Assembly: GCA_001917735.1 (NCBI GenBank)
Contig: MNEO01000062.1
Span: forward strand, 1-13,076
Source: Chloroflexi bacterium 13_1_40CM_68_21
Lineage (GTDB): Bacteria > Chloroflexota > Limnocylindria > P2-11E
Length of the DNA stretch: 13,076 nt
Direction of reading: 5' to 3'
Shown here: positions 189 through 13,076 of the stretch, one piece after another
Position numbering within the stretch: the stretch's first letter is position 1
Layout of the letters: each line of letters starts with the position of its first letter
Position numbers and translations under genes: made by a program
Notes under the pieces: generated by a model
What the model was told of the DNA's origin: nothing
Databases searched by the model: none
What the model saw: only the letters and a program-made list of their open reading frames with translations

Positions 189-1241
189 TCACAGTGTGTT
201 GGGTGCGGTCAGCTCACGAAGCACGTCGCGAACGCCGTCGAGCATGCCCGGCGCGAGCTCATCCAGGAACAGCAGCGCCGCGCCTGAATCGACGTCGTCA
301 TCCTCGGGCCATCCGATCCAGCAGTCCCAGTGAGTGCTGGCGTCCCCGAGCGGCCGGAGCCGATCGGTCATGTACGCCACGGGCACGCCAGGGAATGCAG
401 TGCGCACGGTCATCTCGCGCGGCGGCTCGGCGCTGACTATGCGAAACGACGACGATCGACCATCACCATGGTGGCAGTGGAACTCGCCGCCGACATAGGT
501 GCCGCGGGCACCCGGGGCGACGAATGCGACACGGTCCGCGCCGAGGCGCCGCCGCATCACATTCGGGTCCGTCCAGAGTCGCCAGGCGACGTCGATCGGA
601 GCCGCGAGCTCCTCCTGTCGATGCCAGCGCGCGGTGCTTGCGTCGACCGAGATCATCGCTTCGCGCAGTGCCTCCGCTCGGACATCGGTGAGGTCGCGAT
701 ACGAACCCTCCACCACGCCGAGGTCATACGTCTGTGACAGGGCGATGAACCCCTGACGATCCTGCGGATTCCACCCCGCGAAGGTCGGCTCCGACACGTA
801 GACATACTCACGAAGGGGAACGGAGTTCTTTGTCAGGCGATGGACGAGATTTACATCCGCGCCGAAGAGCTGGACCCGATTGCCGATCTCTTGCCGCGTG
901 AACGATCCGCGATGTGCGAAGAACTTCAGGCCCAGATCGCCGACGCTCGCGCAGGCCTGGCAGGGGCAGGTCGTCGCGCTGGTGATATCCCGCACGCGGC
1001 GGTGGTACGCGCCGAAGCACTCTGTTATCCAGTTGAGAACGCGGCCGTCGAGATTTTCAGTGGTTGCGCAGATGGCGTCGCCCTCGAGTTGATCAATCGA
1101 AAGCCGACCTTCGAACGAGCGGTAGATCACGCTGAGCAGCTCGGCGAGGATCTCGACGGAGTGCTCTTGCTCCGTACCAGCGATGTACCGCGTGTAGCCC
1201 GAAATGTCGGCGATGACGAGGGTCCCCGTGACCTGGGGCAT
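189..1241 (-). CDS. DUF2652 nucleotide-cyclase-fold protein fused to a SRPBCC domain
   Basis: This 350-residue protein has two domains. Residues about 5-195 match DUF2652, a class III adenylate/guanylate cyclase-like fold. It opens with LVIADISGYT, has LEGDAI at 52-57 and GADVNLVHRL at 127-136. The two aspartates that bind metal in class III cyclases, D12 and D55, are both present. A TCPCQAC cluster at 91-97 is typical of DUF2652. Residues about 205-345 look like a SRPBCC/START-like ligand-binding domain (HRQEELAAPIDVAWRLWTDP onward). Cyclase activity of this family is not established to my knowledge; a ligand-gated signalling enzyme is inference. The start is chosen because the domain begins at residue 5. 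No Shine-Dalgarno is seen; a CATAAT box ends 8 nt before the ATG. It lies 54 bp downstream of the DUF255 gene and could be partly co-transcribed with it. Confidence 0.82.
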   Translation of the reverse strand: MPQVTGTLVIADISGYTRYIAGTEQEHSVEILAELLSVIYRSFEGRLSIDQLEGDAICATTENLDGRVLNWITECFGAYHRRVRDITSATTCPCQACASVGDLGLKFFAHRGSFTRQEIGNRVQLFGADVNLVHRLTKNSVPLREYVYVSEPTFAGWNPQDRQGFIALSQTYDLGVVEGSYRDLTDVRAEALREAMISVDASTARWHRQEELAAPIDVAWRLWTDPNVMRRRLGADRVAFVAPGARGTYVGGEFHCHHGDGRSSSFRIVSAEPPREMTVRTAFPGVPVAYMTDRLRPLGDASTHWDCWIGWPEDDDVDSGAALLFLDELAPGMLDGVRDVLRELTAPNTL

Positions 1242-6189: not shown

Positions 6190-7482
6190 TTAAGCCCTCG
6201 CTTCCTCTCGTCTTCGCACGAACCGCTTGGCCTTCATGTCAAAGCGGGGCAGCGTCCCCGGCGCGACGGACTCGACGGCGCAACGGATCCCGAGATCGCG
6301 GTGGATCGCCGTCGCGACCTGATCGGCGAGGTCGGATCCACCACGTGCCTCCACCGTGCAGCGCAGCTCGTCCATCGCGCGCACCGTCACGACCTCCACG
6401 CGATACTCCTCGATCTCCGCAAAGCGGCGGACGATCGCGTCGATCGCGCTCGGGAACACATTCACGCCGCGGATCGTGAGCATGTCGTCCACGCGCCCGG
6501 CGATCCCGCCGGCGAGCTTGAGCAGCGTGCGCCCGCAGGAGCACCGACCGCGGACAGCGCGAACGCGGTCGCCGGTGCGATAACGGAGCACCGGCATACC
6601 CCATCGTCCGAGGTTGGTCATGACGAGCTCGCCCTCGCCTTCGTCCTTCGTCTCGCCAGTCTGGGGATCGAGGATCTCCGCGACGAAGTCCGACTCATTG
6701 ATATGCACGCCGTCGCGAGCCTCGCACGAAAACCCGTGCGCGCCGATCTCGGTGGCCCCGGTGTGGTCGAACGATGTCACGCCGAGCTCAGTCTCTATGC
6801 GCTCGCGCGTGGCCGGGATCGACGCCCCGGGCTCGCCGGCGTGTATCGATACGCGCAGGGCTGAGCGCGCGATATCGATGCCCTCCGCACGCGCGACCTC
6901 GGCAAGCCTCAAGGCATACGTGGGCGTGCACATCAGCACCGTCGCTTCCGCGGCGATGATGGCCGCCACCCGCTCGGCCGATGACATCGCGCCGCCGGTG
7001 AGGCAGAGCGCGCCCAGCTGCTCGGCGCCCGCGAAGGCCGACCAGAAGCCGACGAACGGACCGAACGAGAACGCGAAGAAGATACGGTCGCGGCTGGTGA
7101 CGCCCGCGGCGCCATAGATCGGCCGCCAGCTGTTCCGCCACCACTGCCACGATTCGGCGGTGTCCAGCACGAACAGTGGCCGGCCGGTCGTCCCACTCGT
7201 TTGATGAAGCCGGACGTACTGCTCGACCGGATAGGTCAGGTTCGAGCCGAATGGCGGATGCTCGGCCTGGTCCGTCGATAGCTCAGCTTTCGTCGTGAAC
7301 GGAAGCTCCCGCGCCGACCGGAGCTCGCGCACGTCGCGGATGCCGGCGTCGGCGAGCTTCCGGCCGTAGAACACATTGGTCAGCAGGAGCTCCGGGAGGG
7401 CTCTCGAGAGCCGACGCCACTGCGCCGCCCGGCGCTCGTCGTCGCTCCAGGTCTCGGATCGATCGAGCGCCCCACCCGGCAT
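6190..7482 (-). CDS. Phenylacetate-CoA ligase-like aryl acid:CoA ligase (AMP-binding)
   Basis: This 430-residue adenylate-forming enzyme is of the PaaK type (family usual length about 430-450). It has the ATP loop TSGTTGRP at 95-102, the adenylation motif YRTGDR at 301-306, GRVDDMLTIRGVNVFPSAID at 329-348, and a C-terminal small domain ending LPRFDMKAKRFVRR, whose lysines K417 and K419 hold the catalytic lysine. A CSCGR element at 314-318 matches a cysteine motif frequent in this family. Such enzymes make aryl-AMP and then aryl-CoA in the cytoplasm. The acid cannot be identified by eye: phenylacetate, benzoate or hydroxybenzoates are options. It is the first gene of the minus-strand operon and is divergent, across 68 bp, from the IclR gene and the 4-hydroxybenzoyl-CoA-reductase-like cluster. 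That makes it a good candidate to supply that enzyme's CoA-ester substrate. No clear ribosome-binding site precedes the ATG. Confidence 0.88.
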   Translation of the reverse strand: MPGGALDRSETWSDDERRAAQWRRLSRALPELLLTNVFYGRKLADAGIRDVRELRSARELPFTTKAELSTDQAEHPPFGSNLTYPVEQYVRLHQTSGTTGRPLFVLDTAESWQWWRNSWRPIYGAAGVTSRDRIFFAFSFGPFVGFWSAFAGAEQLGALCLTGGAMSSAERVAAIIAAEATVLMCTPTYALRLAEVARAEGIDIARSALRVSIHAGEPGASIPATRERIETELGVTSFDHTGATEIGAHGFSCEARDGVHINESDFVAEILDPQTGETKDEGEGELVMTNLGRWGMPVLRYRTGDRVRAVRGRCSCGRTLLKLAGGIAGRVDDMLTIRGVNVFPSAIDAIVRRFAEIEEYRVEVVTVRAMDELRCTVEARGGSDLADQVATAIHRDLGIRCAVESVAPGTLPRFDMKAKRFVRRREEARA

Positions 7483-7531
7483 GTTTCGCGGAGTTTAAGC
7501 GGAGGCCCGCTGCTCGCCGCAATGACTGGCG

Positions 7532-7551
7532 TACTATCCGCGGTACGCGTA
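7532..7551 (+). promoter_or_regulatory. Candidate -10 box and 8 bp palindrome at the IclR start
   Basis: TACTAT at 7532-7537 matches four of six positions of the -10 consensus and lies 13 nt before the ATG at 7551, which implies a leader of only about 7 nt. TACGCGTA at 7544-7551 is a perfect 8 bp palindrome that ends on the first base of the ATG, where a bound regulator would block expression. IclR proteins commonly bind near their own start in divergent gaps, so this may be an operator, but no longer repeat supports it and no good -35 is seen. Confidence 0.35.
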
Positions 7552-8210
7552 TGGCCGACAGTACGGGGATGCTCCGACCGGTGCCCGCCGTGGACAAAGC
7601 CGCGCGCGTGCTGCGTGCGCTCGCCGACGGCGGGCGCGCGATGGGCATCAGCGAGCTGGCACGGGCGCTCGACGTCTCCAAGGGGACGCTCCGGGACGTC
7701 CTGCTCACCCTCGCGCACCACGGGCTGGTCGTGCGCGATCCCGACACTCGCTTCCGCCTTGGCCCAGAGCTCCGTGCGCTCGCGGATGCATCGGCACCGG
7801 ACCTGCGAGCGCTCTCGCAGCCCTACCTCGTGTCGCTCATGGAGACCTTCGGCGAGACCGCCATCCTCGGGCTGGTCGTCGACGGAAAGCTCGAGATCGC
7901 GGCGCGCGCCGAACCGGCGACCGATCTCCACATGACCGCTCCGCTCGGCCGCCGCCTGCCCCTCGAGAAAGGCGCGCACGGCAAGGTGCTGGCGACCCGC
8001 GAGGAGATCGGCTACGACGACCAGGAGCTGTTCGCCGGCGTCCGCGCAGTTGCCGCACCGATCGTGGATGCGCGGGGACGGCGCATCGCCGTGCTCATGG
8101 TCGTGGGCTTCAAGGAGCGTGTCGATCTCCGCACGCTCCGGCGCATCGGCGAACGTTGCGCATCGGCGGCGCGCGCGCTGTCGCAGCGGATCGGAGCGCA
8201 GGCCGCATGA
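7551..8210 (+). CDS. IclR-family transcriptional regulator, compact form
   Basis: This 219-residue protein has an N-terminal winged helix-turn-helix at about 12-70 (VDKAARVLRALADGGRAMGI, then SELARALDVSKGTLRDVLLTL). An IclR effector domain follows to about 212, including LPLEKGAHGKVLA (136-148) and VAAPIVDARGRRIAVLMVVG (167-186). The family usually has 240-270 residues. The missing part lies between KVLA and the GV-AAP strand, where only about 16 residues stand in place of the usual helical stretch. Ligand binding may thus be altered or the fold simplified. Its stop overlaps the start of the 2Fe-2S subunit gene as ATGA, so it is co-transcribed with the reductase genes. It faces the divergent aryl-CoA ligase gene, and control of both units in response to an aromatic acid or its CoA ester is the natural inference. 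Confidence 0.88.
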   Translation: MADSTGMLRPVPAVDKAARVLRALADGGRAMGISELARALDVSKGTLRDVLLTLAHHGLVVRDPDTRFRLGPELRALADASAPDLRALSQPYLVSLMETFGETAILGLVVDGKLEIAARAEPATDLHMTAPLGRRLPLEKGAHGKVLATREEIGYDDQELFAGVRAVAAPIVDARGRRIAVLMVVGFKERVDLRTLRRIGERCASAARALSQRIGAQAA

Positions 8211-8680
8211 CTTCGACGAAGGTGCTCATCACCCTGCGCGTGAACGGAGAGCCGCGGACCGTCGCGGCCGAGCCTCATCACACGCTCCTCGAGGTGCTCC
8301 GCGAAGAGCTGGACCTCACGGGGACGAAACATGGTTGCGAGCTCGGAGAGTGCGGCGCCTGCACCGTACTGCTGAACGGCGCACCGGTCCTTTCTTGCCT
8401 CACCCTGCCATCGCTCATCGGCGACGCCGACGTCACGACCGTCGAAGGCCTCGCCACCGGCGAGAGACTTCATCCGCTGCAGACCGCATTTGCCGAGGAG
8501 GGCGCGGCGCAATGCGGCTACTGCACACCCGGGATGCTCATGGCGGCGAAGGCCCTGCTCGATGCGACGCCTCGTCCGACCCGCGAGCAGATCGCCATGG
8601 CGATCAGCGGGAACCTCTGCCGCTGCACCGGCTATACCGCGATTTATGAAGCTATCGAGAAAGCCGCATTACGCGCATGA
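8207..8680 (+). CDS. hcrC: Molybdenum hydroxylase 2Fe-2S subunit, 4-hydroxybenzoyl-CoA reductase gamma type
   Basis: This 157-residue subunit has the two 2Fe-2S domains of the xanthine oxidase family. The plant-type cluster ligands are C44, C49, C52 and C64 (HGCELGECGACTV...SC). The helical second domain has C103 and C106 (CGYCTPGM) and C138 and C140 (NLCRCTGY). Length is standard for HcrC/CoxS-type subunits. Electrons pass through it between the FAD subunit and the Mo site. ATG 8207 is chosen over an upstream ATG at 8156 because it gives the usual N-terminus (MTSTKVLITLRVNGEPR) and an ATGA overlap with the IclR stop. GGAG lies about 10 nt upstream. Its stop overlaps the Mo-subunit ATG as ATGA. 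The gene name rests mainly on the neighbouring beta subunit; by itself it could be any CoxS/XdhC-like small subunit. Confidence 0.88.
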   Translation: MTSTKVLITLRVNGEPRTVAAEPHHTLLEVLREELDLTGTKHGCELGECGACTVLLNGAPVLSCLTLPSLIGDADVTTVEGLATGERLHPLQTAFAEEGAAQCGYCTPGMLMAAKALLDATPRPTREQIAMAISGNLCRCTGYTAIYEAIEKAALRA

Positions 8681-11103
8681 GCGAGTTCTCGGTCATCGGG
8701 CGGCGCCTGCCGAAGGTCAACTCGTGGGCACACCTGACCGGCCAGGCGCGCTACGCCGACGACCTCTTCCTGCCGCGCATGCTCTACGGTCGCCTGCTCC
8801 GCTCGACACGGCCGCACGCGCGCATCCGGCGACTGGACGTCTCGCGAGCGGCCGCGCACCCGGGCGTCGTCGCGATCGTCACAGGCGCGGACATGCCCGC
8901 GAAGATGGGGATCATGCCCTCGACGCAGGACGAGACGGCCCTGGCGGTCGACAAGGTGCGCTACGTGGGCGAGCCGGTCGCCGCCGTCGCCGCCGTCGAC
9001 GAGGACACCGCCTTCGACGCCCTCTCGCTCATCGAGGTCGACTACGACGACCTCGAGCCGATCTTCACGATCGAAGAGGCGCTCGAGCGCGAGGACGTGA
9101 AGATCCACGAAGAATCCAAGCGGGCCAACGTCTTCAAGGAGGTCCACCTCAGCTTCGGTGACCTCGACGCCGGCTTCGCCAGCGCCGACCACGTCCGCGA
9201 CGACTGGTTCTTCTTCGAGGGCAACACGCACGCGCCGATCGAGTCGCATAGCGCGGTCGCGAGCTACGGCGCCGACGACAAGCTGACGCTCTGGACCGCG
9301 ACCCAGGTCCCCCACTACCTGCACCGCGAGCTCGAGAAAGTGCTGGGCCTGCCGCGCTCGCGCGTCCGCGTGATCGCGACGCCCAACGGCGGCGCGTTCG
9401 GCGGCAAGAGCGACCCCTTCGGCCACGAGTTCGCGGCGGCGCTCCTCTCCATCCGCACCCGCCGCCCGGTGAAGATCACGCTCGATCGCGAGGAGGTCTT
9501 CTACGCGCACCGCGGCCGGCATCCGGTGAAGATGCGCATCCGCACCGGCGTGAAGAGGGACGGCGAGATCACCGCCGTCCACTACCAGAGCTGGCTCGAC
9601 GGCGGCGCGTACGCCTCGTACGGCATCGCCACGACTTACTACACCGGCGCTCTCTTGACCGTCACTTACCGCATCCCCGCCTACAAGTTCGACGGCGTGC
9701 GCGTTTACACGAACAAGCCCCCGTGCGGCCCCAAGCGCGGACACGGCACGACGCAGCCGCGGTACGGCTTCGAGTGCCAGATCGACAAGATCGCCGAAGA
9801 TCTCGGACTCGACGCGCTCGAGTACCGGAAGCGCATCCTGCAGCCACCGCAGAGCCGCACGGTGAACGACCTGCGCATCACGTCCATGGGCCTGGGCGAC
9901 TGTCTCGACGCGCTCGGGCGCGCGACCCGCTACAGCGAACGCCACGGACAGCTCGGGCGCGGCAAGGGCATCGGGGTCGCCGGCAGCGCGTACATCTCGG
10001 GCGCGGGCCTACCGATCTACTGGAACGAGATGCCTCATTCGGGCGCGGAGGTCCGGATCGATCGAGGCGGCGGCGTCACCGTGATGTGCGGTACGGCGGA
10101 GATCGGGCAGGGCTCCGACAACATGCTCGCATCCGTGGCGGCCGAGACGCTCGGCATCCTGCCCTCGGACGTGCACGTGGTCTCTGGGGACACATCGCTC
10201 GCGCCGGTCGACCTCGGCAGCTACTCGAGCCGTGTGACCTTCATGGCTGGGAACGCGGTGAAGGACGCCGCGATGAAGCTGCGTGCGCTGCTCTTCGCCG
10301 CCGCATCGGAGAAGCTCGGCGTCGCGGAGGACCGCCTGCTCGCGGCCTACCACCGGATCTATGACCAGAGCGACCCGGAGAAGTTCGTCACGTTCGCGGA
10401 CGCCGCGGTGCTGGCGGAGTCGAAGCACGGCACCCTGGTCGCGGCCGGGAGCTACAAGCCGCCCAAAGGCATCGGCGGGTCGTTCAAGGGTGCGGGGGTC
10501 GGGCCGACGCCGGCGTACTCCTACCAGGCGGCGGTTGCCGAGGTGAGCGTCGACCTCGAAACGGGAACGCTCACCGTCGACAAGGTGACGACCGCGCACG
10601 ACTGCGGCCGGGCGCTCAATCCCGCGAACGTCGAGGGCCAGATCGAAGGCTCGGCGTATATGGGGTATGGCGAGATCATCGCCGAGGAGCAGGTTTTCCG
10701 CGGCGGTCTGCACAAGAAGCCGTCGCTCCTCGATTACAAGCTGCCCACCTCGCTCGACACGCCCGCGCTCGAGGCGATCGTGGTCGAGAGCGTCGACGCG
10801 GAGGGACCGTTCGGCGCGAAAGAGGCCGGAGAGGGTCCCCTCAATCCGGTGATCCCCGCGATCGCGAACGCGGTCTACGACGCGATCGGGGTCCGCTTCG
10901 ACGAGACGCCGATCACCCCGGAGAAGATCCTCGATGCGCTCGGCAAGCGCGACAATCGGGGCATCCCCAAGACGCGCATCGGGCCGGACGGTCTTGGCGA
11001 GCGGGACGGCGCCCCCAAACGCGCGCTGCGGCGCCTCACCGCGTCGACCGAGGCACGCGAACGGAAACCGGCCGGGGGCCGGGGGGCAGAGCCCCCCGAC
11101 TGA
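8677..11103 (+). CDS. hcrA: Molybdenum hydroxylase large (Mo-binding) subunit, 4-hydroxybenzoyl-CoA reductase alpha type
   Basis: This 808-residue subunit binds the Mo-pterin dinucleotide cofactor. It has the N-terminal ald_Xan_dh a/b-hammerhead domain (VTGADMP at 68-74, VRYVGEPVAAV at 94-104), then GGAFGGK at 238-244, PCGPKRGHGT at 349-358, EIGQGSD at 475-481, DLGSYSSRVTF at 512-522, and GAKEAGEGP at 713-721, in which E719 corresponds to the catalytic glutamate. The PCGPKRGHG segment and the DLGSYSSR segment fit the 4-hydroxybenzoyl-CoA reductase group. The CO-dehydrogenase loop AYRCSFR is absent. The expected reaction is reductive removal of the ring para-hydroxyl of an aryl-CoA; the substrate is inferred. 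Relative to the roughly 770-residue family it has an extra, charged, Gly/Pro-rich tail from about 756, the end of which is encoded by a GC hairpin. The stop overlaps the FAD-subunit ATG by one base (TGATG). Confidence 0.88.
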   Translation: MSEFSVIGRRLPKVNSWAHLTGQARYADDLFLPRMLYGRLLRSTRPHARIRRLDVSRAAAHPGVVAIVTGADMPAKMGIMPSTQDETALAVDKVRYVGEPVAAVAAVDEDTAFDALSLIEVDYDDLEPIFTIEEALEREDVKIHEESKRANVFKEVHLSFGDLDAGFASADHVRDDWFFFEGNTHAPIESHSAVASYGADDKLTLWTATQVPHYLHRELEKVLGLPRSRVRVIATPNGGAFGGKSDPFGHEFAAALLSIRTRRPVKITLDREEVFYAHRGRHPVKMRIRTGVKRDGEITAVHYQSWLDGGAYASYGIATTYYTGALLTVTYRIPAYKFDGVRVYTNKPPCGPKRGHGTTQPRYGFECQIDKIAEDLGLDALEYRKRILQPPQSRTVNDLRITSMGLGDCLDALGRATRYSERHGQLGRGKGIGVAGSAYISGAGLPIYWNEMPHSGAEVRIDRGGGVTVMCGTAEIGQGSDNMLASVAAETLGILPSDVHVVSGDTSLAPVDLGSYSSRVTFMAGNAVKDAAMKLRALLFAAASEKLGVAEDRLLAAYHRIYDQSDPEKFVTFADAAVLAESKHGTLVAAGSYKPPKGIGGSFKGAGVGPTPAYSYQAAVAEVSVDLETGTLTVDKVTTAHDCGRALNPANVEGQIEGSAYMGYGEIIAEEQVFRGGLHKKPSLLDYKLPTSLDTPALEAIVVESVDAEGPFGAKEAGEGPLNPVIPAIANAVYDAIGVRFDETPITPEKILDALGKRDNRGIPKTRIGPDGLGERDGAPKRALRRLTASTEARERKPAGGRGAEPPD
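11080..11098. repeat. Perfect GC hairpin at the 3' end of the Mo-subunit gene
   Basis: CGGGGGGC and GCCCCCCG form an 8 bp perfect stem around the 3 nt loop AGA. It lies inside the last codons of the Mo-subunit gene and ends 4 nt before the ATG of the FAD-subunit gene, so it covers the place where its ribosome-binding site should be. The form resembles small REP-like palindromes that add short Gly/Pro-rich tails such as GGRGAEPPD. No T-run follows, so it is not a standard terminator. A role in setting subunit ratio by masking or processing is inference. Confidence 0.6.
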
Positions 11104-12119
11104 TGCTGCGTCTGCCGCGTTTCCGGATCCTGGCCCCGCGCACCTACGGCGAGGCTGCCGAGCTTCTTCGCGATCACGGCGCCGGCGAGCTCGACCGCTC
11201 GCGCGGTACGCCGACCCTCGGCGTGATGCTCGTGGCCGGCGGGACGGACCTCTTCCCCAACATGAAGCGGCGTCAATTCGCGCCGGAGATCCTCGTGTCG
11301 CTGGCGCACGTCCGCGGCGCCGCCGGGATCCAGGAGAACGGCGAGCTCGTGGTCAGCGCCGGCACGACGTTGACCGCGCTCGCGGACGATGCCCGCGTCC
11401 GGGAGCGCTACACGGCGCTCGCCGAGTCTGCTGGGGTGGTGAGCACGCCGCAGCTCCGAAACATGGGCACGATCGGCGGAAACATCTGCCTCGACACGCG
11501 CTGCAACTGGTACGACCAGTCGCTCTTCTGGCGGACCGCCGAGGGGTACTGCATGAAGACGAATCCCGAGGTCGTGTGCCGCGTCGCGACATCGAGCCCG
11601 CGCTGCCTTGCCGTCGCGAGCGCCGACACGGTCCCCGCGCTGATGGTCCTCGGCGCGACGATTCATTTCGAAGATGCGCGCGGGGCTCGCGACGTCCGCC
11701 TCGCGGAGTTCTACCGCGAAGACGGCATGTCCCCCTCGACGCTCCGTCCCGATGAAGTTCTCACCGACGTGACGATCCCGCGCGAGGAGGGCTGGCGCAG
11801 CACATACGTGAAGCTGCGCGATCGCGGCTCCTTCGACTTCCCGATCGCGGCGGTCGCCGCGGCCGTGCGCTACGACGGCCGAGCCGTCACCGACGTTCGT
11901 GTCGCGATCACCGCCCTCGCGTCGCGTCCCATCCTCGTCGACGCGGCGCGCGCGGCGCTCATCGGCACGCGGCTCGAGGACGAAGCGATCGCCGCGGCGG
12001 CGGAGGCAGTGCACAAGGCCGCGCGGCCGATGGACAACACCTCGGGCACGATCTCGCAGCGCAAGCGCGCGTCGCGTGTCCTCGCCGAACGCGCGCTGCG
12101 CGCTCTTCGCCCGCGATAG
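11103..12119 (+). CDS. hcrB: Molybdenum hydroxylase FAD subunit with extra 4Fe-4S loop, 4-hydroxybenzoyl-CoA reductase beta type
   Basis: This 338-residue subunit has the FAD-binding marks AGGTDLFPNMKRR (45-57) and TIGGNICLDTRCN (123-135). Directly after the second lies an insertion rich in cysteine: C134, C150, C159 and C168, ending SSPRCLAVASADTVPAL. In the 4-hydroxybenzoyl-CoA reductase structure from Thauera a loop at this place binds a 4Fe-4S cluster through four cysteines spaced, as I recall, 16, 8 and 9 residues apart; here spacing is 16, 9 and 9. Other xanthine oxidase-family FAD subunits lack this loop. The cluster lets low-potential electrons enter from ferredoxin, so the enzyme would work as a reductase. 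C129 is a further cysteine. The gene starts at ATG 11103, coupled to the Mo-subunit stop, and is followed after 3 nt by the cofactor gene. Confidence 0.9.
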   Translation: MLRLPRFRILAPRTYGEAAELLRDHGAGELDRSRGTPTLGVMLVAGGTDLFPNMKRRQFAPEILVSLAHVRGAAGIQENGELVVSAGTTLTALADDARVRERYTALAESAGVVSTPQLRNMGTIGGNICLDTRCNWYDQSLFWRTAEGYCMKTNPEVVCRVATSSPRCLAVASADTVPALMVLGATIHFEDARGARDVRLAEFYREDGMSPSTLRPDEVLTDVTIPREEGWRSTYVKLRDRGSFDFPIAAVAAAVRYDGRAVTDVRVAITALASRPILVDAARAALIGTRLEDEAIAAAAEAVHKAARPMDNTSGTISQRKRASRVLAERALRALRPR

Positions 12120-12122
12120 CCC

Positions 12123-12707
12123 GTGCGCGCCGTCGCCGTGGTCACCGCTGCGGGTTCGGCGGAGCGCTTCGGCGGCAAGAAGCTCCTCACGCCGATCGAT
12201 GGCGAGCCGCTCCTCGACCACACCATCCGGGCGCTCCTCGAGGGAGGCGCTGCCGAGGTCATCGTCGTCGTCGGCCGCGATGCGCGCGCTGAGCTCGAAC
12301 GCGACGTCAACGCGATGCTCGACGCGCGCGTCCGCCCTGTCGAGAATCCCGATCCGTCGCGCGGGATGTTCAGTTCGATCCAGGAAGGGGTGGCGCAGGC
12401 GCAGGGCGACGCGATCCTGGTCATGCCCGGGGACATGCCGTTCGTCTCGGCCGACACTGTGCGCGTGGTGATCGACGCGTTCGCGCGCAAGCCGGCCATC
12501 GTGTCGCCGCGCTACCACGGAAAGCGCGGTCACCCCATCGCCCTGCCGCCGTCGCTGCGCGACGAGATCCGTGCGGCCGATCCACGCACGACGCTACACG
12601 ACGTCATTCACCGGCACACCGAGATGCGCGTGGACGTGGAGGTCGAGGACCAGGGGATCGTCCGCGACGTGGATACCGCCGCCGATCTCGGCGCACCCGG
12701 GCGCTGA
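12123..12707 (+). CDS. mocA: MocA-type molybdenum cofactor cytidylyltransferase (NTP transferase)
   Basis: This 194-residue protein is a MobA/MocA-like nucleotidyltransferase. It has the nucleotide-binding loop AAGSAERFGGKKLL at 9-22, GMFSSIQEG at 81-89, the metal-binding PGDMPFV at 102-108, GKRGHPIALP at 133-142 and DVDTAADL at 182-189. MocA joins CMP to Mo-molybdopterin to make the cytosine dinucleotide cofactor used by xanthine oxidase-family enzymes in bacteria. The start is GTG 12123, three bases after the FAD-subunit stop; no ATG fits the conserved beta strand. Placement directly after three Mo-hydroxylase subunit genes supports a dedicated maturation role. No XdhC-type insertion chaperone is visible in the window. 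Distinction from other NTP transferases of this group rests on motifs and context. Confidence 0.85.
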   Translation: MRAVAVVTAAGSAERFGGKKLLTPIDGEPLLDHTIRALLEGGAAEVIVVVGRDARAELERDVNAMLDARVRPVENPDPSRGMFSSIQEGVAQAQGDAILVMPGDMPFVSADTVRVVIDAFARKPAIVSPRYHGKRGHPIALPPSLRDEIRAADPRTTLHDVIHRHTEMRVDVEVEDQGIVRDVDTAADLGAPGR

Positions 12708-12819: not shown

Positions 12820-13076
12820 ATGAACGTGGGACCGGGCGATCGGGACGGACAGCCGGCGGATCGGGCGGATCTCTCCCGCCGCGACTTCCTTCGCCGCGGC
12901 GCCGCACCGGTCGTGGCCTTCATCGCCCTCGAAGCGATCGGCGGCCTCGGCCTGGCGACCGGCAGCGCACCGAAAGAGACCAAGCTCTCGAGCGGCGTCA
13001 TCTTCCCCGACCCCAGCCTGTGCATCGGGTGTCTCACCTGCGAGGTGATCTGCTCGCAGGAGCACAAGCGCGAAGG
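12820..13076 (+). CDS. Tat-signal 4Fe-4S ferredoxin-type protein, N-terminal fragment (3' end outside window)
   Basis: The 85 visible residues open with a twin-arginine signal, SRRDFLRRG at 19-27, followed by a hydrophobic stretch at 30-50. After a short linker comes a 4Fe-4S motif with C68, C71, C74 and C78 in CIGCLTCEVICSQEHK. The CxGCxxCExxCSxxH form is typical of multi-cluster electron-transfer subunits that partner molybdenum or tungsten enzymes (for example of aldehyde oxidoreductase or formate dehydrogenase type). A Tat signal implies folding with clusters in the cytoplasm and then export or membrane attachment. E38 within the hydrophobic stretch is unusual. AGAGG at 12805-12809, 10 nt before the ATG, supports this start; an in-frame GTG at 12814 is too close to it. 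Its partner lies beyond the window, so a link to the reductase operon is unproven. Confidence 0.8.
   Translation, partial: MNVGPGDRDGQPADRADLSRRDFLRRGAAPVVAFIALEAIGGLGLATGSAPKETKLSSGVIFPDPSLCIGCLTCEVICSQEHKRE

Follow-up and report, generated by a model that had tools for sequence, protein, structure and literature searches.

A sister clade of 4-hydroxybenzoyl-CoA reductase, encoded beside a PaaK-like ligase in a Chloroflexi genome and present in several other bacterial groups

The window analysed here, a stretch of 13,076 nucleotides from Chloroflexi bacterium 13_1_40CM_68_21 (contig MNEO01000062.1), encodes the three subunits of a molybdenum enzyme of the xanthine oxidase family (Table 1). 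Its closest characterised counterpart is 4-hydroxybenzoyl-CoA reductase (HCR), HcrABC of Thauera aromatica (PDB 1rm6, 1sb3; TIGR03193-03195). Genes for an IclR-type regulator, the gamma, alpha and beta subunits and a MocA-like nucleotidyltransferase follow one another on the same strand, overlapping or only a few bases apart, and a gene for a PaaK-like ligase diverges from this IclR-led operon across a gap of 68 bp. The start of gamma was set at the ATG at 8207, within an open frame that begins at 8156. The nearest solved relatives of the ligase are phenylacetate-CoA ligases and 2-hydroxyisobutyryl-CoA synthetase, and the MocA-like protein, judging by its model scores, probably serves molybdopterin cytosine dinucleotide synthesis. 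Elsewhere in the window (189-1241, minus strand) a 350-aa protein with a DUF2652 domain is encoded, for which no NCBIfam match was obtained.

Table 1. Features of the ligase and reductase locus, with positions in the window.
Feature	Position	Strand	Domains, scores or remarks
PaaK-like AMP-forming aryl-CoA ligase	6190..7482	-	234.7-248.5 bits with PaaK models, under their cut-offs
Palindrome CGTAC-N8-GTACG, a candidate operator immediately before the IclR start	7530..7547	+	Pattern match only
IclR-type regulator, first gene of the operon	7551..8210	+	HTH_IclR, IclR_C domains
Gamma (2x [2Fe-2S]) subunit	8207..8680	+	Fer2, Fer2_2 domains
Alpha (molybdenum) subunit	8677..11103	+	HcrA kinship; PPCGPKRGHG motif; Glu719
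Beta (FAD) subunit, 338 aa	11103..12119	+	FAD_binding_5 / CO_deh_flav_C domains; HcrB kinship
Loop of [4Fe-4S] type from C129 to C168, with C134, C150, C159 and C168 as proposed ligands	11487..11606	+	
MocA-like nucleotidyltransferase	12123..12707	+	TIGR03310 143.2 bits (cut-off 186.45); DVU_1551 model 144.4

The contigs closest to the window come from soil Chloroflexi metagenome genomes (L001 and L002), whose beta subunits are 91-92% identical to that of the window, and several related proteins, P0015, P0102 and P0129 among them, carry the name Candidatus Limnocylindria. Across the 19 loci of the window's lineage, many of which are cut by contig ends, homologues were found of MocA in 17, of IclR in 12 and of the PaaK-like ligase in nine. 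The gap between the ligase and IclR genes holds the palindrome CGTACTATCCGCGGTACG (7530-7547), which was matched once in the window, 0.03 matches being expected with up to three mismatches allowed. A related sequence occupies the same place in seven aligned loci of the lineage, and a looser palindrome pattern was found in four of 132 loci, once in each. The palindrome is a candidate for the IclR operator.

Downstream of MocA, a gene for a Tat-type 4Fe-4S dicluster protein begins (window 12820-13076), which only part of the lineage has. In L002 (11712-14786) the corresponding gene is followed by those for a cytochrome b561-like protein and then a beta-propeller protein, and farther downstream (L002:16288-20857) lies a second trimer of the family, the FAD subunit of which has a four-cysteine loop of the PaoB type. 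The Tat iron-sulfur and cytochrome b genes were considered as electron donors and were not adopted, the iron-sulfur gene being present in seven of the 19 lineage loci. No short ferredoxin gene was detected near the trimer by a pattern scan of 75 loci (L001-L073, L080 and L081), a pattern that unusual ferredoxins would escape. Seven of these loci gave a match, which was the Tat-type iron-sulfur gene in L001, L002, L004, L005 and L016, a frame downstream of MocA in L006, and a far-off frame of 66 codons in L024.

An earlier note on this DNA had drawn attention to four cysteines of the beta subunit, C134, C150, C159 and C168, in an insertion that it took to be the hallmark of the HCR beta subunit and to reverse the electron flow usual in the family. 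The cysteines themselves were confirmed, as were the motifs GTIGGN, CLDTRCNWYDQ and SSPRC, and the interval given for them, 11487..11606, runs exactly from C129 to C168 (codons 11487-11489 for C129, 11502-11504 for C134, 11550-11552 for C150, 11577-11579 for C159 and 11604-11606 for C168). Alignment with HcrB (1rm6_B), which the note had proposed as a check, paired the four one to one with C122, C138, C146 and C155. Because they are invariant in an alignment of 30 beta sequences, with identity down to 41%, and coincide with the HcrB cysteines, the loop cysteines are not a product of chance. C129 aligns with HcrB C117 and is only nearly invariant in the same 30 sequences, and was therefore left out of the ligand count. 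HcrB 1rm6_B was also the best PDB sequence match of the beta subunit (E=1.5e-54; next 4.3e-28) and the best fold match of its AlphaFold2 model (Foldseek E 1.2e-34; next, a CO dehydrogenase subunit, 4.0e-27). The mean pLDDT of this model was 81.6, and loop residues 132-165 had values below 50.

The presence of such a loop is not peculiar to HCR. In an alignment of 15 FAD subunits, four loop cysteines in another spacing were found in the L087 subunit encoded between paoA and paoC and in those of the L002 and L010 second trimers, and the FAD subunit of L091 has four as well; the insertion is absent from five other FAD subunits of the family (L083, L089, L090, L092 and L124). The solved aldehyde oxidase subunit 5y6q_B has cysteines in the loop region too, and PaoB binds a [4Fe-4S] cluster. 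The loop was consequently rejected as sole proof of an HCR: since a PaoB-type subunit and second trimers of the window's own lineage have the four cysteines, the hallmark claim was not borne out. The claim of reversed electron flow fared no better, as the loop alone does not show it; the title of the 2004 HCR structure paper names both an extra [4Fe-4S] cluster and an inverted electron flow. The feature that fits HCR is the spacing of the cysteines rather than the mere presence of the loop, C-x15-C-x8-C-x8-C in the window and x15, x7, x8 in HcrB, with a different spacing in the PaoB type.

Comparison of the alpha subunit with solved chains gave 630.1 bits for HcrA (1rm6_A), 282 for the next chain and 250.6 for the large subunit of nicotinate dehydrogenase, and identity to Thauera HcrA was 41.8%. 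TIGR03194 was the top model for alpha, at 887.6 bits (cut-off 994.55; next model 519.3), and TIGR03195 the top NCBIfam model for beta, at 283 bits (cut-off 404.55). The gamma subunit scored 173.9 bits against TIGR03193 (cut-off 257.8) and slightly higher, 177.7, against a glyceraldehyde dehydrogenase model, so that gamma is not discriminating. None of the three subunits reached the curated HCR cut-off (TIGR03193/03194/03195). Two genome searches gave no hits above these cut-offs either. In the class of G022 (the Betaproteobacteria bin with L040) none of 274 genomes had an alpha subunit over the HCR cut-off and three had one at E<=1e-200, and in the phylum of G001 (Chloroflexi) none of 301 had a beta subunit over the cut-off and 54 had one at E<=1e-60. 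HCR reference sequences were therefore drawn from a protein search with HcrA.

In a maximum-likelihood tree of 55 alpha rows, a group of 40 that unites classic HCR with the window and the window's relatives split from 15 other family members at 100/100. Within this group, eight rows of classic HCR form one clade and 32 rows, the window's among them, its sister, both supported at 100/100. The 15 outsiders comprise an annotated xdhB (L088), an annotated paoC, CO enzymes (1zxi and 8uem), quinoline and 6-hydroxypseudooxynicotine enzymes, two second-trimer paralogues and unassigned members, of which the L091 alpha groups with that of L087 at 100/99. These 55 rows are 51 of the 87 rows of a quick tree together with four PDB chains; the quick tree, made from 72 of 75 alpha frames (three under 700 aa were left out) and 15 HCR rows, agrees with the careful one. 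A tree of the large subunit was another check proposed in the note, and it placed alpha with HCR, outside the xanthine, CO and aldehyde enzymes sampled.

Single positions gave the same grouping and also a division within it. At 27 positions the 46 HCR rows and the 54 clade rows have the same residue, at least 95% fixed, which is seen in no more than 12% of 18 others; the His of the RGHG motif is one of them, and another is a Glu that precedes the catalytic position by three residues. RGHG was found in all 56 clade alphas and in none of 19 other family members. At 42 alignment positions, classic HCR and the window's clade are fixed differently. HcrABC and the window enzyme thus have in common three subunits, matching loop cysteines, a catalytic Glu and the RGHG His with 26 further positions; they differ in that alpha identity is about 42%, the window scores fall below all cut-offs, the 42 positions are fixed differently and the window belongs to a sister clade, with PaaK-like ligase, IclR and MocA-like genes as its neighbours. 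Since the tree places the clade as a sister and all subunits score below the curated cut-offs, the window enzyme is best described, on its sequence, as a member of a sister clade of HCR rather than as a proven HCR. The original observation is confirmed and its interpretation partly supported: kinship with HCR stands on the best PDB matches of alpha and beta, the beta fold, the tree and the signature positions, the curated scores do not admit the enzyme to HCR proper, and reductive aryl-CoA chemistry is a well-founded inference only.

Glu719 of the window alpha subunit (codon 10831-10833) aligns with Glu726 of HcrA, which we take to be the catalytic base of the xanthine oxidase family. Glu occupies this column in all 46 HCR rows, in 17 of 18 other family members and in all 14 rows of the window's lineage (the window included). 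Clade members outside the lineage have Gln instead (39 of 40 rows, L020, L029 and L064 among them, and one gap). The lone Gln among the 18 other family members, that of L005, lies in a misaligned alignment end, and among 120 listed close protein relatives of the window alpha 114 have Glu and six fell outside the search pattern. In the 55-row tree the sister of the window's lineage, at 99/94, is Ktedonobacter racemifer with a Gln, so that either Glu was regained or Gln arose twice, two changes either way. Loss of the general base in the Gln enzymes would disfavour hydroxylation, yet it is also a departure from classic HCR, and the residue thus cuts both ways.

A genome scan for the beta subunit returned 73 loci, 19 from the window's lineage and 54 from other Chloroflexota, Rokubacteria, Methylomirabilota, Acidobacteria, Planctomycetota, Gemmatimonadota, SAR324, and Myxococcota-type and Proteobacteria bins. 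An alpha subunit above our score limit was present in 43 of these 54. Their database names are mixed, many relatives being called HCR subunits and two among the relatives listed aldehyde oxidase. In flanks of up to 10 kb, boxB-like genes accompany nine of the 54 outside loci, boxC seven, benzoate-CoA ligase eight and a PaaK-like ligase 11, the last lying directly 3' of beta in L025, L026, L034, L038, L071 and L072; in 34 of the 54, none of these four genes was found in the fetched flanks. By NCBIfam, BoxB of L029 (858.5 bits) and L064 (704.1 bits) exceeded the cut-off of 499.1 and that of L019 (210.9 bits) was under it, and BoxC of L064, at 686.9 bits, fell just under its cut-off of 712.3. The remaining boxB-like and boxC genes were called from BLAST scores alone.

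Searches were extended to 26 draft genomes, 13 of the window's lineage and 13 outside it, of which the completeness is unstated, so that absences are weak. BoxB was over the cut-off in five of the 26 and BoxC in six, all among the 13 outside the lineage. HGD-D, a family that covers subunits B and C of benzoyl-CoA reductase together with related dehydratases, was over the cut-off in six, two of them in the window's lineage. PobA, the usual aerobic 4-hydroxybenzoate enzyme, had no match at E<=1e-20 in 25 of these draft genomes of unstated completeness and a match in one. Four of the 13 outside genomes (two Ktedonobacter, one Anaerolineales and one Proteobacteria bin) had neither BoxC over the cut-off nor HGD-D, which none of the readings below explains.

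Within the window's lineage, neither BoxB nor BoxC was over the cut-off in any of the 13 genomes, and benzoyl-CoA-reductase-like gene pairs were found in two, G010 (L121) and G008 (L122). In G010 these genes and the trimer share one contig of 184,009 bases. The best scores in L121 and L122 were BcrC- and BcrB-like, under the cut-offs, and an activase-type gene accompanies them (class I type). A distant BoxB relative of 447 aa, encoded at L124:7638-8981 in G001, was matched in 12 of the 13 lineage genomes, the match being split or carrying an internal stop in G003, G004 and G010, and in one of the 13 outside genomes at 34% identity. This protein scored 64.8 bits against the BoxB model (cut-off 499.1), and its best solved match was a phenylacetate-degradation-related protein, with BoxB second. 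From this kinship it is predicted to be a di-iron oxygenase; that it attacks benzoyl-CoA is a guess. In the regions fetched from G001, G002 and G012 its gene lies next to that of a shorter paralogue, putatively PaaC-like by comparison, to a gene of the benzoate-CoA ligase family and to a further trimer of xanthine oxidase type; G001 also has, beside it, a gene for cytochrome c oxidase subunit I that scores over the cut-off.

Taken together, these data make it probable that the genes at 8207-12119 and the divergent ligase gene encode an HCR-type system in which the ligase activates a hydroxy acid and the trimer reductively dehydroxylates 4-hydroxybenzoyl-CoA. The window enzyme is most likely a hydroxyaryl-CoA reductive dehydroxylase that works much as HCR does, and its substrate and direction, like cluster assembly, electron donor and regulation, are what we infer beyond the gene order, kinship and residue conservation observed here. 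The PaaK-like ligase would form the CoA ester of an aromatic hydroxy acid, 4-hydroxybenzoate being the likeliest, and the operon would supply an alpha-beta-gamma molybdenum iron-sulfur flavoenzyme of HCR type. The beta subunit would take up electrons, through the [4Fe-4S] cluster of its loop or through its FAD, and gamma would relay them by its two [2Fe-2S] clusters to the molybdenum site of alpha, where 4-hydroxybenzoyl-CoA would yield benzoyl-CoA and water by reductive loss of the ring hydroxyl. Cofactor in its cytosine dinucleotide form would come from the MocA-like protein, and both ligase and reductase would be controlled by the IclR protein from the common promoter region of 68 bp.

This proposal is supported because HcrA and HcrB are the closest solved relatives by wide margins and because the tree, the 27 positions, RGHG and the loop spacing agree with them; boxB, boxC and benzoate-CoA ligase genes in part of the outside flanks, a PaaK-like ligase gene following beta in six loci, and the lack of a PobA match in 25 of the 26 draft genomes add to it. 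It is weakened by scores below the HCR cut-offs, the 42 fixed differences and a lineage lacking BoxB and BoxC over the cut-off and having benzoyl-CoA-reductase-like gene pairs in only two of 13 genomes, and further by the 34 bare flanks of 54, the lack of a short ferredoxin gene in the pattern scan, Gln outside the lineage and the low confidence of the modelled loop. A broader proposal is tentative and open to considerable doubt: the window would represent a second HCR clade, found in many uncultured phyla, that supplies benzoyl-CoA, in oxygen-using bacteria, to BoxB or perhaps, within the window's lineage, to the predicted di-iron protein, with Gln possibly fixing the reductive direction outside the lineage and the window's lineage having kept or regained Glu.

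The 42 differences from classic HCR, together with a ligase that is PaaK-like and not of the benzoate-CoA ligase type and the 13 lineage genomes without BoxB or BoxC over the cut-offs, would also be consistent with reductive dehydroxylation of some other hydroxyaryl-CoA, for example a dihydroxylated or 3-hydroxylated benzoyl-CoA, to a product other than benzoyl-CoA. We regard this as unlikely, since boxB-like genes in nine and boxC genes in seven of the 54 outside flanks specify proteins that both act on benzoyl-CoA, and since the 27 signature positions are common to the clade and HCR. An HCR relative with another phenol substrate is nevertheless known: Ucdh, the urolithin C dehydroxylase of Enterocloster bolteae, which is reported as 32.7% identical to HCR and described as the second reductive dehydroxylase found in the xanthine oxidase family (PMC12771579). 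Like HCR, Ucdh is a xanthine oxidase family enzyme that removes a phenol hydroxyl reductively; unlike the enzyme proposed for the window, it acts on a substrate that is not a CoA ester, and FAD and two 2Fe-2S clusters are described for it (PMC12771579).

The trimer might instead be oxidative, hydroxylating an aryl-CoA or heteroaryl-CoA and passing electrons via the [4Fe-4S] cluster to an acceptor. A model for such oxidative hydroxylation of a heteroaryl-CoA is 2-furoyl-CoA dehydrogenase, which, with nicotinate dehydrogenase and Ucdh, is not among the rows of the alpha tree. The catalytic Glu of the window's lineage is compatible with this chemistry, as are the cytochrome c oxidase subunit I gene in one lineage genome (G001) and the four-cysteine loop of a subunit encoded between paoA and paoC, genes annotated as those of an aldehyde enzyme. 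Set against a reductase as the nearest characterised kin and Gln as the catalytic residue in 39 of 40 relatives outside the lineage (with one gap), these points leave oxidation a distinctly unlikely role. An ordinary aldehyde, xanthine or CO type dehydrogenase with a PaoB-type loop is disfavoured and very improbable: PaoABC-type aldehyde oxidoreductases (plasmid locus L087; 5y6q; background in PMC3958847 and PMC2997495) do share the alpha-beta-gamma build and four loop cysteines, and a trimer with a PaoB-type loop lies downstream in relatives of the lineage, but they differ from the window in loop spacing and lack RGHG, the L087 alpha is placed elsewhere at 100/100, the window alpha lies outside the aldehyde, xanthine and CO groups with the same support and has RGHG alongside an HCR-type loop spacing, and TIGR03194 gave 887.6 bits vs 519.3 for the next model.

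The preferred reading, reductive dehydroxylation of 4-hydroxybenzoyl-CoA, has a possible parallel in Aromatoleum aromaticum EbN1, for which PMC9765128 counts a presumptive reductive dehydroxylation to benzoyl-CoA among the steps common to growth with and without oxygen, the box pathway following when air is present. That organism is a facultative anaerobe, whereas the window's relatives are mostly in uncultured phyla. SAR324 bins are described as having box genes and an HCR with a thioesterase, and the authors read this arrangement as a side pathway making 4-hydroxybenzoate (PMC4782131), a reading that differs from the one adopted here. In the open-licence literature, no paper was found that joins 4-hydroxybenzoyl-CoA reductase with the box pathway or with Rokubacteria, or hydroxybenzoyl-CoA reductase with benzoyl-CoA epoxidase; 4-hydroxybenzoyl-CoA is joined there with boxB and aerobic metabolism, as in PMC4782131 and PMC9765128.

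The surprise at this locus is the breadth of the clade, its partial linkage to box genes and a Glu/Gln switch in a sister clade of HCR. Enzymes of the xanthine oxidase family mostly oxidise their substrates, and the HCR step is known best from anaerobes. That some relatives of the window enzyme in other phyla are encoded beside genes for oxygen-dependent benzoate breakdown hints that reductive dehydroxylation may also serve oxygen-using bacteria. If this is true, a sister clade of HCR that is widespread in bacteria of soil and sea, and lies partly near boxB and boxC, would make reductive phenol dehydroxylation available to microbes that use oxygen and encounter hydroxybenzoates from lignin. 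With the natural switch between Glu and Gln, the question of what determines the reaction direction of these enzymes can be addressed directly.
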